This document shows, in pieces, positions 36,597 to 62,634 of a DNA stretch of 64,000 bases. The position numbers were made by a program, and so were the translations under genes. The stretch's first letter is position 1. Every line of letters begins with the position of its first letter. The DNA lies in NCBI RefSeq assembly GCF_900205865.1, contig NZ_LT906662.1, positions 62,001-126,000 on the forward strand, read 5' to 3'. The notes under the pieces are model-generated. The model did no database searches. It saw nothing but the letters and a program-made list of their open reading frames with translations, and was not told the DNA's origin. The DNA is from Thermoanaerobacterium sp. RBIITD (GTDB lineage Bacteria > Bacillota > Thermoanaerobacteria > Thermoanaerobacterales > Thermoanaerobacteraceae).

Positions 36597-36929
36597 TTAT
36601 ACTTCTGCATTTAGATATCTTGATAATCTGTATTCTAATTGTTCTTTTGGCATAAAACCAATTACTTTATCAACTAATTCACCATTTACAAAAACTCCTA
36701 GTGTAGGAATACTCATAATCCTATACTGTGATGCTATCATAGGATTTTCATCAACATCAAGTTTAACAACCTTTATCCTATCAGAATATTCTTCAGCAAA
36801 TTCTTCTAAGACTGGAGCCATCATTCTGCATGGCCCACACCATTTTGCCCAAAAATCAACTAAAACAGGTTTGTCAGAATTATATACCTCATTATCAAAA
36901 TTCATATCTGTTACATTTAATGGTTTCAT
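36597..36929 (-). CDS. trxA: Thioredoxin
   Basis: A 110-residue classical thioredoxin with the redox centre WAKWCGPCRMMAP, the cis-proline in SIPTLGVFVNG and the buried-Asp region KPVLVDFW. It reduces protein disulfides in the cytosol. No thioredoxin reductase gene is nearby. It is a single-gene unit with a consensus promoter, an unusual dyad in the leader and a terminator. GGAGG precedes the ATG. Confidence 0.96.
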   Translation of the reverse strand: MKPLNVTDMNFDNEVYNSDKPVLVDFWAKWCGPCRMMAPVLEEFAEEYSDRIKVVKLDVDENPMIASQYRIMSIPTLGVFVNGELVDKVIGFMPKEQLEYRLSRYLNAEV

Positions 36930-36945
36930 ATTTTCATCCTCCTTA

Positions 36946-36964
36946 TATACTATCCCCCTGTATA
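36946..36964 (-). promoter_or_regulatory. Candidate CsoR-family-like operator in the trxA leader
   Basis: A dyad TATAC-9-GTATA encloses a run of five C (plus strand), giving a G-tract flanked by ATATAC/GTATAT on the other strand. CsoR/CstR-type repressors bind sites with A-T flanks around G/C tracts. It lies between the predicted transcript start and the ribosome site, so a bound protein could block the polymerase. The binding protein is a guess. Confidence 0.4.
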
Positions 36965-36983
36965 TGGGACTCTTACTAAATAA

Positions 36984-37012
36984 AATATATCACCTTTTTC
37001 CCATTCTGTCAA
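36984..37012 (-). promoter_or_regulatory. Sigma-A promoter for trxA
   Basis: On the minus strand: -35 TTGACA (37007-37012), a 17-base spacer, -10 TATATT (36984-36989). Confidence 0.8.
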
Positions 37013-37054
37013 TAGCTACTTTGAAGTTATATTTTATTTAAAAATATAAACAAC

Positions 37055-37085
37055 ATAAAAAAGCTATAGACAAAGCCTATAGCTT
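37055..37085 (-). terminator. Terminator after the nagB relic
   Basis: Stem AAGCTATAG / CTATAGCTT (37061-37069 / 37077-37085) followed on the minus strand by TTTTTT. Confidence 0.85.
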
Positions 37086-37102: not shown

Positions 37103-37615
37103 TTACACCACTAACTTATTTATATCAATCATAAATGCAGCATCTTTATCTATTATAACAGTTACGTCAGGATGCAACGATAATACCGTTGAAGGAACAT
37201 CTGTTGTCAAATATCCCTTTAAAGTTTCTTTAATTGCCATAGCTTTATTTTTCCCCGAAGCTAGAAGTATAATCTTTTTTGCCTTCATTATAGTCCCAAG
37301 TCCCATTGTAATAGCTTTTCTCGGCACTTCATCAGCACTTTTGAAAAATCTTTTGTTTGAATTAATAGTTTCCTCAGCAAGTTTTACAATATGTGTCTTT
37401 GTATTTATATAATCATCTGGCTCATTAAATCCTATATGTCCATTTACACCAAGCCCCAAGATTTGAAGATCTATCTCACCAAATTTCTCTATCTCCTCAT
37501 CATACAATTTGCATTCCTTATCAAAGTCATCTAATACACCTTCGGGGATATGAATGTTCTCTTTTTTAATGTTTATATGGTTGAATAAATTCTCGTACAT
37601 GAAATAATGATAACG
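37103..37615 (-). pseudogene. nagB: Glucosamine-6-phosphate deaminase, C-terminal two thirds only
   Basis: About 170 codons match NagB from [13 protein letters not shown] onward, including the catalytic loop [13 protein letters not shown] and the conserved end. NagB is normally about 240 residues; the first 70 or so, including the MDEY aspartate that starts ring opening, are absent. Immediately upstream, in another frame, is the head of a ROK repressor, so a deletion fused the two genes. A start at the internal ATG (37600) would make a protein without the first Rossmann strands, probably inactive. Confidence 0.85.
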
Positions 37616-37748
37616 TGGATTTGCTCATATTAAGTACTTTTGATATTTTTATACGTGAAATCGGCTGCATTTTCTTAATTACGCCCAATACATTAGCAGT
37701 ATTAATATTTTTGATAAGATAGTTTGTACCTTTTTTATACTGTGACAA
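37613..37748 (-). pseudogene. ROK-family (NagC/XylR-like) repressor, DNA-binding head only
   Basis: From a TTG start with GGTGGTGAT upstream, the frame reads a typical ROK winged helix: NYLIKNINTANVLGVIKKM, then [18 protein letters not shown], and breaks in the recognition-helix region where nagB sequence begins in a different frame. The sugar-binding ROK domain is lost. The fused frame would run on to 37566. Confidence 0.82.
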
Positions 37749-37761
37749 ATCATCACCACCA

Positions 37762-37784
37762 TTTAGTTCACTGCCCGAACTAAA
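37762..37784. promoter_or_regulatory. ROK operator dyad 1
   Basis: TTTAGTTC-7-GAACTAAA, a perfect 8-bp inverted repeat between the promoter and the ROK start. The pattern resembles NagC/XylR-type sites. Confidence 0.7.
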
Positions 37785-37796
37785 TGCTTTAAAAAA

Positions 37797-37817
37797 TTAG
37801 TTCGGGCATCGAACTTA
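37797..37817. promoter_or_regulatory. ROK operator dyad 2
   Basis: TTAGTTC-7-GAACTTA, the same half-site as dyad 1 with one mismatch, 12 bases away. Two tandem sites downstream of the -10 element fit a roadblock repressor. Confidence 0.68.
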
Positions 37818-37829
37818 TCTTGCAATATT

Positions 37830-37859
37830 ATTATACCATAAATTATGAAGTTTTGTAAA
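37830..37859 (-). promoter_or_regulatory. Sigma-A promoter of the rok-nagB scar
   Basis: On the minus strand: -35 TTTACA (37854-37859), an 18-base spacer, -10 TATAAT (37830-37835). It looks intact although the genes it drove are broken. Confidence 0.7.
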
Positions 37860-37907: not shown

Positions 37908-39266
37908 ATGATTAAGCGAAAAAAATATATTTTGATAACCCTAGTCCTCTTTGTCTTATTATTTTTGACTTTTGAAATGAAATATTATTACTATGGCAGT
38001 AAGACGCCATTAAAAAAAGAAGTACCTAAAAAAAATTTATATGATAGGGTGCTTGTCATAGCTCCACACCCGGATGATGAATCACTAGGTGCCGCAGGTA
38101 TAATTCAAAATGCAATTAAAAACGGTGGGAAAGTCAAAGTTGTAGTTATAACAAACGGCGATGGTTTTACACGTGCCGTTATGAAGAATTACAATATTTC
38201 ATTTCCAAAACCGCATGATTATATAAAGATGGGATATGAAAGGCAGAAGGAAACATTAAATGCGCTTTCATTTCTCGGGGTGAAAAAAAATGATATAATT
38301 TTTCTTGGATACCCTGATAAGGGACTTTCTTATTTGTGGGGTGATTATTGGAATACTCCTTATAAGAGTTTTGGTCCGAAAGTTACACATAGCCCATATG
38401 ATAATTCATTTGACAAAAATGTTGAATATGAAGGTAAAAAAGTAGTAAAAGATTTAACTAAAATTATCAATGATTATGATCCTACACTTGTGGTTTACCC
38501 ACACCCGAATGAGGTCCATCCAGACCACTGGGGAACTAATAGTTTTACAAAATATACATTATTTACATTGAAAAAAAATGATATACCACAATATTTATAT
38601 ATAATACATAGAAGCGATTGGCCTTTGCCATTTGGGAAACATACTTATTTAAATTTAAATCCACCTCCTAATCTATTAAATACAGGAACCAATTGGCATC
38701 TCTATCCACTAACAAATCATCAAATTGATAAAAAAGGAACCGCACTTTTGATGTACAAAACGCAAGTAAAAGTAATGAAAGACTTTTTATCGGCATTTTG
38801 CAGAAAAACAGAACTTTTTGGCGATTATAAGGATGGAATAATAAAAAATTACACTGGTGGAAATTTAGATAATTATAAAGCAATCATTGATCCTTTTAGG
38901 GATAATTTAAGAGATTATGAAAATAGCGCAGCAGATATTACTTATGTATATGCATACACTGAAAATAATAAACTAAATATTTATATTAAATGTAGGGAAA
39001 AAGCTAATAGTGATTACGAATATTTATTTTATGGAATATTTTTTAAAGACAATAAAGAAATTGGTAGAATAAAAGCAAGAGTTATATCGGGAAAAATGAA
39101 AAACATGAATTTTGGTTATGCATCGATCAAAAATGGAATAGTACATATAACTATCCCTTTTGATAAATACAAGGGCTTTGATTACATTTATATAGCAGTA
39201 GATTCACTTGCTAACAAAAGGCTTATAGATAAATCAGCATGGCATATGTTAAAAAGGGCTAAGTAG
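37908..39266 (+). CDS. PIG-L family deacetylase, membrane anchored
   Basis: A 452-residue protein. Residues 7-22 form a signal-anchor helix. The LmbE/PIG-L domain carries the zinc motif APHPDDESLG (53-61) and the distal HPNEVHPDHWGT histidines; family members remove N-acetyl groups from sugars such as GlcNAc conjugates. A C-terminal region of about 120 residues (ENNKLNIYIKCRE and onward) looks like an added beta-sandwich. The outside location suggests action on cell-wall or extracellular glycans. The site AAAGGA is somewhat far (12 bases) from the ATG. Confidence 0.88.
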   Translation: MIKRKKYILITLVLFVLLFLTFEMKYYYYGSKTPLKKEVPKKNLYDRVLVIAPHPDDESLGAAGIIQNAIKNGGKVKVVVITNGDGFTRAVMKNYNISFPKPHDYIKMGYERQKETLNALSFLGVKKNDIIFLGYPDKGLSYLWGDYWNTPYKSFGPKVTHSPYDNSFDKNVEYEGKKVVKDLTKIINDYDPTLVVYPHPNEVHPDHWGTNSFTKYTLFTLKKNDIPQYLYIIHRSDWPLPFGKHTYLNLNPPPNLLNTGTNWHLYPLTNHQIDKKGTALLMYKTQVKVMKDFLSAFCRKTELFGDYKDGIIKNYTGGNLDNYKAIIDPFRDNLRDYENSAADITYVYAYTENNKLNIYIKCREKANSDYEYLFYGIFFKDNKEIGRIKARVISGKMKNMNFGYASIKNGIVHITIPFDKYKGFDYIYIAVDSLANKRLIDKSAWHMLKRAK

Positions 39267-39272
39267 CCCTTT
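39253..39272. terminator. Hairpin between convergent genes
   Basis: AAAGGGCT / AGCCCTTT (39253-39260 / 39265-39272) spans both stop codons. No strong T run follows on the plus strand, so activity is uncertain. Confidence 0.5.
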
Positions 39273-39825
39273 ACATTCCCATGAATTTATAACCTGTAAC
39301 AAGATTAATGCTATTTGTTATTATTTTTTGCGACATTTCGTTTATATCTTTTGTAATAGGCTTTAACAACTTCGACACATTATCACCGTTTATGACTGCT
39401 CCGTGTTCAACCATCATGCCATTCATAATTTTCGCATTTTCAACAATGGAATTTATTCCTATATAACAGCCATCATCAATATTTGAATTAAAAACTATAC
39501 TTTTTATTCCAAGTGTTGAAAAATTGCCTATAGAACAATTACCTTTTATTATAGCTCCATTAAAAACAACAACATTTTTACCGATTTCTATATTAGAATT
39601 TCCTATGGTATTTATATTGACTCCATCTTGTATACTTACTCCATCGCTAATTACTATACATCCAGTTCTGTAGTTTTCATCAACTTCATCAGCTCTTATA
39701 ACAACATTTGGACCTATATAAACATTGTCTTTTATCACTATGTTCCCTATCAATATAGCAGAAGTATCAATATATGCTGTATGGGATATCACGGGAGCAT
39801 TCCCATATATATCTTCCCTAACCAA
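39271..39825 (-). CDS. Left-handed beta-helix protein, gamma-CA-like without zinc histidines
   Basis: A 184-residue hexapeptide-repeat protein with the same opening pattern as gamma-carbonic anhydrases (ILIGNIVIKDNVYIGPNVVIRADE). At the positions where the paralogue at 7647-8159 has its three metal histidines, this one has Asn (GVNINTIGN) and FNGAIIK, so the metal site is gone. It may be a scaffold or an acyltransferase-like relative. GGAGG precedes the ATG. Confidence 0.82.
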   Translation of the reverse strand: MVREDIYGNAPVISHTAYIDTSAILIGNIVIKDNVYIGPNVVIRADEVDENYRTGCIVISDGVSIQDGVNINTIGNSNIEIGKNVVVFNGAIIKGNCSIGNFSTLGIKSIVFNSNIDDGCYIGINSIVENAKIMNGMMVEHGAVINGDNVSKLLKPITKDINEMSQKIITNSINLVTGYKFMGM

Positions 39826-61737: not shown

Positions 61738-62634
61738 TTACTTCTTTTCTACTGCGTGACCACCAAATTCATTTCTCAGTGCTGCAACAACTTTGCCAGC
61801 AAATGTATCATTTTCTTCTGAACGATATCTCATAAAAAGGGACTCTGCAATAACAGGTACTGAAACTTTTAGCTCTAAGGCTTCCTGAACAGTCCATAAC
61901 CCTTCACCAGATGAATGCATAACGCCTTTTATTGCCTCTAATTTAGGATCTTTTTTGAATGCATCTATCATTAACTCCATTAACCAACCACGAATGACGG
62001 ATCCATGATTCCATACTCTAGCTATCTCTTTATAATCAAAATCAAATTGACTCTTTTCAAGAACTTCAAAACCTTCCCCTATCGCTTGTAGCATTCCGTA
62101 TTCAATCCCATTATGAACCATTTTAACAAAATGTCCTGTACCATTTTTTCCAGTATGTAAATAACCATTTTTTATACTAATATCTTTTATAATCGGTTCT
62201 ATATATTTGAATACTTCATCTTCTGCGCCGACCATAGTACATGCACCATGTCTTGCTCCTTCTATCCCACCGCTTGTTCCAACATCAACAAAATCTACTC
62301 CTTTAGATTTAAGCATTTCATATCTTTTTAATGTATCTTTATAATATGAATTGCCACCATCAATTATAATATCATGTTCCTGTAAATGTGGTAAAATTTT
62401 ATCAATCATTTCATCAACAGGACTGCCAGCTGGCACCATAAGCCATATAACTCTTCTTCTATCTAATTTATCTACTAATTCTTTTACACTATAAGCACCA
62501 GTAATGCCCACTTTTTCTGCTTCTTTTACTCTTTCTAATGTCCTGTTGTATGCAACAACCTCATGTCCATGGTCTCTCATATTTAATGCAAGATTATACC
62601 CCATTTTGCCAAGTCCAACAAGTCCTATTTTCAT
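61738..62634 (-). CDS. gnd: 6-phosphogluconate dehydrogenase, short (YqeC-type) form
   Basis: Oxidative decarboxylation of 6-phosphogluconate to ribulose-5-phosphate. At 298 residues this is the short, often NAD-preferring form rather than the 470-residue NADP type. It has VGLGKMGYNLALNMRDHGHEVVAYNRT, the GTSGGIEGARHG loop and the catalytic KMVHNGIEYGMLQA. AAGGAG precedes the ATG. Together with zwf it gives the oxidative pentose phosphate branch. No separate lactonase gene is visible. Confidence 0.95.
   Translation of the reverse strand: MKIGLVGLGKMGYNLALNMRDHGHEVVAYNRTLERVKEAEKVGITGAYSVKELVDKLDRRRVIWLMVPAGSPVDEMIDKILPHLQEHDIIIDGGNSYYKDTLKRYEMLKSKGVDFVDVGTSGGIEGARHGACTMVGAEDEVFKYIEPIIKDISIKNGYLHTGKNGTGHFVKMVHNGIEYGMLQAIGEGFEVLEKSQFDFDYKEIARVWNHGSVIRGWLMELMIDAFKKDPKLEAIKGVMHSSGEGLWTVQEALELKVSVPVIAESLFMRYRSEENDTFAGKVVAALRNEFGGHAVEKK

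Follow-up and report, generated by a model that had tools for sequence, protein, structure and literature searches.

Deletion pseudogenes and gene remnants are ordinary in bacteria. ROK-family repressors of the NagC/Mlc/XylR type regulate their own operons. For genes that are replaced by a relative's version, the closest described process is xenologous gene displacement, for which PMC1274311 describes what we also see here: a sister-type copy is present and the native orthologues have been lost. PMC3082293 concludes against displacement in its own case. No paper on the rok–nagB scar locus treated here was among the matches listed. At this locus the native orthologues are broken at their ancestral place and a second, intact copy is present elsewhere in the genome, which looks like a clear case, of an ordinary kind, of a gene cluster displaced by a relative's version. 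We consider it highly probable that the native rok-nagB-ccdA-tlpA cluster was displaced in trans by a sister-type xenolog and that the redundant native genes were deleted.

The window, by which we mean the whole 64,000-nt stretch of DNA that was analyzed, corresponds to positions 62001–126000 of a genome assembled as one contig of 3.40 Mb (99.99% complete). The features of the scar and its surroundings are collected in Table 1. When the scar was aligned with the second copy from the same genome, one clean gap appeared at the rok–nagB junction. An earlier note on this DNA, made from the sequence alone, had described a deletion scar joining the head of a ROK repressor to the tail of NagB, with an out-of-frame passage from the rok helix-turn-helix (HTH) into nagB behind an intact promoter and two ROK-like dyads; all of this was borne out. 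The note missed a second deletion outside its span, between ≈37061 and 37012, which removed ccdA and tlpA. NagB, which it had taken to be short by 70 residues, in fact lacks ≈80–85.

Table 1. Features of the rok–nagB scar and its flanks (positions in the window).
Feature	Position	Strand	Remarks
trxA, intact	36597–36929	-	own promoter at 37012–36984
Deletion 2 zone, ccdA and tlpA missing	37012–37061	-	≈1.4 kb missing; junction placed only to within the zone
nagB terminator hairpin, retained	37061–37085	-	z -4.94; similar hairpin after nagB in the second copy and 7 sister loci
nagB remnant, codons ≈81 onward	37103–37612	-	N-terminal third gone; early stop at 37103
Deletion junction 1	37609–37616	-	≈1.26–1.27 kb gone relative to intact loci
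rok remnant, first ≈45–47 codons (HTH)	37614–37748	-	out of frame, the ORF ends at 37566
Dyad 2, putative ROK operator	37763–37780	-	exact to GTTCGNNNNNYGAACTAA here; one pattern mismatch in 5 of 8 sisters
Dyad 1, putative ROK operator, near transcript start	37797–37814	-	exact to GTTCGNNNNNYGAACTAA; conserved letters present in 10 of 10 aligned loci
Promoter TTTACA-18-TATAAT of the former rok–nagB operon	37830–37859	-	11 of 12 consensus positions; alignable with the second copy and 8 sisters
PIG-L family deacetylase gene, ancestral neighbor	37908–39266	+	
Hexapeptide-repeat protein gene, ancestral neighbor	39271–39825	-	

The rok remnant starts with TTG, and its HTH is 85% identical to residues 2–49 of the intact ROK protein, with nucleotide identities of 79–81% to the eight intact copies compared. 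Only ≈47 N-terminal codons are left, and the fragment failed a test for the combination of an HTH and a ROK domain. The nagB remnant, in another frame than that of rok, keeps 165 open codons between 37600 and 37103 and ends ≈8 codons earlier than in intact copies. Its product matched the NagB profile TIGR00502 at E 6.4e-59, but with 199.4 bits it fell below the curated cut-off of 236.9, and it failed as a whole-profile NagB, covering only profile positions 89–248 of 259.

Across the scar region, nine promoter-like sites were found compared to 6.4 ± 2.6 in shuffled sequences, which is no regional excess; the scar promoter, however, can be aligned with nine other loci. That alignment comprised the window, the second copy and the eight sisters (10 loci), and its pattern matched none of the four outgroup loci in which the promoter region was searched. 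Dyad 1, which is followed by a run of T, also has a terminator-like appearance in the leader (37799–37815), and these letters are likewise kept in the sisters.

The size of deletion 1 becomes 1253–1262 nt if the short rok–nagB spacer is excluded. The earlier note had placed the junction in a short shared stretch, as in a microhomology deletion. The 8-nt sequence at 37609–37616, ACGTTATC, was absent from both the rok side and the nagB side in all eight intact loci, where ACNGTATC stands on the rok side and AAAGYTAYC on the nagB side, with at most TATC in common. Since the true parental sequence is gone, an 8-nt microhomology cannot be demonstrated, and microhomology is no more than a possible mechanism.

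The second deletion is evident from spacing. In all eight sisters, nagB and trxA are separated by ≈1.5 kb; trxA comes immediately after nagB in the window. The trxA promoter of the sisters starts just past the tlpA stop codon, and the window retains both this promoter and the nagB terminator, so the loss of ccdA and tlpA spared trxA. Between the nagB remnant and trxA, leftovers of ccdA and tlpA amount to short matches of 12–24 nt, some of which map to the tlpA–trxA gap of sisters G001 and G005, the site of the trxA promoter. The possibility that ccdA and tlpA had never been present at this locus was rejected, as outgroups G014 and G015 carry both ahead of trxA (G012 is without them in the stretch examined); most simply, their loss is derived. 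In the sister loci L149–L155, a C-rich/G-rich dyad that resembles CsoR/CstR-type operators precedes both ccdA and trxA (36930–37012 in the window), suggesting possible shared redox or sulfur control. In sister G004, ccdA and the response regulator (RR) gene are each split over two frames (L155 9352–10015 and 11106–11811), perhaps through sequencing errors or decay.

Gene order indicates that the window holds the ancestral position of the cluster, since its flanks match those in the sisters on one side and in outgroups of the same family on the other. In all seven sister loci fetched, rok-nagB-ccdA-tlpA-trxA is followed by RR and a kinase gene (HK), and the series goes on to purL; on this side the window agrees with them from trxA-RR-HK as far as purL. 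Family outgroups G011, G012 and G015 have hexapeptide–PIG-L–rok–nagB in the same order and orientation as in the window, G014 has a PIG-L fragment beside rok–nagB, and G013 has hexapeptide–PIG-L–nagB without rok. The PIG-L and hexapeptide genes are absent from the rok–nagB flank in the seven sister loci. Behind nagB, ccdA-tlpA-trxA was found in G014 and G015 (in the latter after ≈5 kb) and ccdA-tlpA in G011 and G013; in G012, ccdA-tlpA was not found in the stretch fetched. G012 and G015 carry the RR–HK pair at the other end of the cluster. The genome G008, which has a short contig here, was left out of the sister gene-order set, the identity table and the rok, ccdA and tlpA gene trees, and G004 was left out of the RR and ccdA identity rows because of its split frames. 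The recurrence of a PIG-L deacetylase and a hexapeptide protein beside rok–nagB or nagB (37908–39825; L191, L192, L193 and L194) hints that these proteins are functionally linked to amino sugars.

An intact rok–nagB pair was found at 2538380–2540319 of the same contig (G000:C1), as part of a rok-nagB-ccdA-tlpA cassette spanning 2.538–2.542 Mb and equipped with the promoter and both dyads. By coordinates, the cassette is 2.44 Mb from the window; on a circular contig the opposite route would be ≈0.96 Mb. Its NagB scored 335.5 bits against TIGR00502, above the cut-off of 236.9, and in its ROK protein an N-terminal winged HTH precedes the ROK domain (PF00480). There was no further ccdA match elsewhere in the genome at E 0.001. 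Left of the cassette lies a repeated element (L091 740–2509), which recurs at 3.07 Mb with 99% identity and at 1.95 Mb with 93%, and which gave a weak integrase-core match below the curated cut-off. To the right, a gene pair that by eye is MutS-like occurs twice in tandem at 78% DNA identity (L091 13885–16807 and the start of L157).

The earlier note had suggested a search for a second nagB and had supposed that amino sugar use was either lost or supplied elsewhere. The search succeeded, and at the gene level the second supposition stands and the first is rejected: in addition to the intact rok–nagB, nagA is present at 653092–654207, as it is, above cut-off, in all nine genus genomes including the host. 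With both nagB and nagA intact, amino sugar use has probably been kept, judging from gene presence. What the note missed is that the intact copy is of the type found in the sister species.

Over 3451 nt the second copy is 91.4% identical to G005, uninterrupted and in the G005 gene order, compared to 82–86% over 3.4–3.5 kb for the other seven sisters and 79% for the window remnant. The window itself is 71–79% identical to G005 in all eight matching pieces, remnants included. For nagB, identity to seven sisters is 84–92% for the second copy and 76–78% for the remnant, and the window core genes trxA, RR, purL and a lysine-decarboxylase-like gene stand at 71–85% to the sisters. Synonymous differences gave the same picture: 0.08 to G005 for tlpA of the second copy, against 0.61–0.73 to G005 and 0.59–0.81 to the sisters for the four core genes; for nagB, the remnant differs by 0.75–0.82 from all eight loci compared and the second copy by 0.27 from G001. 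Across ≈10 nt at the right edge of the cassette, the match with G005 weakens from 96% to 76% identity, and it continues at 0.75 Mb of G005 instead of 1.61 Mb. In a nagB tree that included eight of the 13 family- and order-level loci (L011–L023), the window remnant fell outside a group of the second copy and the eight sisters (support 96/96).

The cassette is a mosaic. In gene trees its whole rok, ccdA and tlpA fall with G005, and its nagB is closest to G001; over the rok-HTH and nagB columns, analyzed with four of the five longer outgroup loci (L194 is without rok), a clade of the second copy with G005 was rejected (AU p 0.012). G005 itself is odd in ccdA and tlpA, which are 78 and 81% identical to its closest sister G001, compared to 89–94% in six other genes. 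The ccdA-tlpA part of the cassette may thus have passed from the host lineage to G005. Because of the AU tests, the mosaic cassette and this oddity of G005, our claim is limited to an apparent exchange with the sister radiation, with neither a named donor nor a firm direction.

One version of such an exchange runs partly in reverse: ccdA-tlpA at the second locus would be native, moved there, perhaps with the help of an IS, and passed to G005, and only its rok–nagB would be of sister type. It would account for the identities of G005 to the other sisters, which are just 78–79% in ccdA and 74–81% in tlpA, and the IS-like sequence left of the cassette, weak and below curated cut-offs, would fit a move. 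However, G005 purL too stands at 75–76% to four sisters, and a single event is simpler for one unbroken 3.45-kb block in the G005 gene order, which makes this version unlikely. Duplication of the cluster within the host lineage, with later decay of the original, is improbable. In AU tests on the short remnant columns, a clade uniting the remnant with the second copy was not rejected (p 0.072; 0.195 for DNA and 0.084 for protein), but such a duplicate should not have a nagB so much closer to the sisters than the remnant or the core genes are, nor a tlpA so little diverged from G005 at synonymous sites, and the remnant has no clear acceleration in its amino acids.

In the favored reading, displacement by a sister-type xenolog, a deep-branching Thermoanaerobacterium would have started with a native locus of hexapeptide gene-PIG-L-rok-nagB-ccdA-tlpA-trxA. 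An intact rok-nagB-ccdA-tlpA cassette, of the kind common to the sister species, would then have inserted elsewhere in the chromosome. If the cassette arrived first, as we infer, the four native genes would have become redundant and selection on them relaxed, after which one deletion would have taken most of rok and the 5' third of nagB and another ccdA together with tlpA. The distant cassette is presumably functional.

On this scale the inactivation seems to be recent, since the remnant bears no clear trace of a period without selection. Its dN/dS ratio is uninformative, as synonymous sites were saturated in all seven sister comparisons, and invariant positions were used instead. Only one of 69 positions invariant among 22 relatives had changed; the same treatment of the 22 gave 0–2. 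The ratio of dN to the sisters over dN among the sisters was 4.4 for the remnant nagB (0.096 vs. 0.022), 4.7 for trxA (0.071 vs. 0.015), 4.0 for the lysine-decarboxylase-like gene (0.032 vs. 0.008), 3.5 for RR (0.174 vs. 0.050) and 2.1 for purL (0.174 vs. 0.083), so that the remnant keeps pace with trxA, the lysine-decarboxylase-like gene and RR and lies above purL.

It is hardly conceivable that selection keeps either the short NagB or the HTH peptide as a functional product. No stop interrupts the 165-codon frame, and 68 of the 69 invariant positions are retained in it, but such conservation is expected anyway after a recent inactivation. N-terminal parts are gone, among them the GSTPL loop and the aspartate of DEYVGL, both of which have catalytic roles in NagB; the frame also stops early, and by eye its internal ATG has no ribosome site ahead of it. 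The earlier note had named conservation of the short form in relatives as what would speak against a scar; in all eight genus relatives, nagB is a full-length open frame of 256–264 aa from stop to stop, and a conserved short form was rejected for them. An assembly artefact is scarcely credible in a single-contig genome of this completeness, with two separate junctions and flanks in ancestral order.

The scar is probably without function, because the NagB fragment lacks its N-terminal third and because trxA, downstream of the retained terminator, has a promoter of its own. The exact pattern of the dyads occurs at 15 sites in the nine genus genomes, all upstream of rok or the rok remnant; four are in the host genome, two at the scar and two at the second copy. 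When up to one mismatch was allowed, 31 sites were found in the nine genomes, compared to 49 for a backwards control, which shows that their number is not above chance. The evidence is therefore one of placement, as 24 of the 31 are at rok promoters or the scar. Based on the HTH identity, the immigrant ROK protein probably still recognizes the orphan dyads. It is a highly improbable idea that the orphan promoter and its two exact dyads are kept because the immigrant ROK binds them, either as an operator decoy tuning induction of the cassette, where the genome would offer four exact sites instead of two, or as a cross-regulated promoter from which a short RNA would run to the retained terminator.

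Compared to the known systems, the second copy shares with ROK repressors of the NagC/Mlc/XylR type a ROK domain with a winged HTH, dyads by the promoter and an adjacent nagB. It differs in that exact dyads occur only at its own promoter in the nine genomes, and its ROK protein, at 136.5 bits, is far under the cut-off of 650 for the NagC equivalog. With ordinary deletion pseudogenes, the scar shares a frame-breaking internal deletion in a sequence that is otherwise well kept; unlike them, it has two deletions in one locus, taking just the genes that are present at a second locus. The suspicion that the host had lost amino sugar use is corrected by that second locus. Relative to xenologous gene displacement as PMC1274311 describes it, the displacement here would be in trans and of a four-gene cluster, and the native remains, promoter and dyads are still visible. 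The locus thus appears to be a cluster displacement caught half-finished, with native regulatory DNA and gene stubs in place and a sister-type cassette elsewhere, and it lets one examine whether native operators come under the control of an immigrant repressor.
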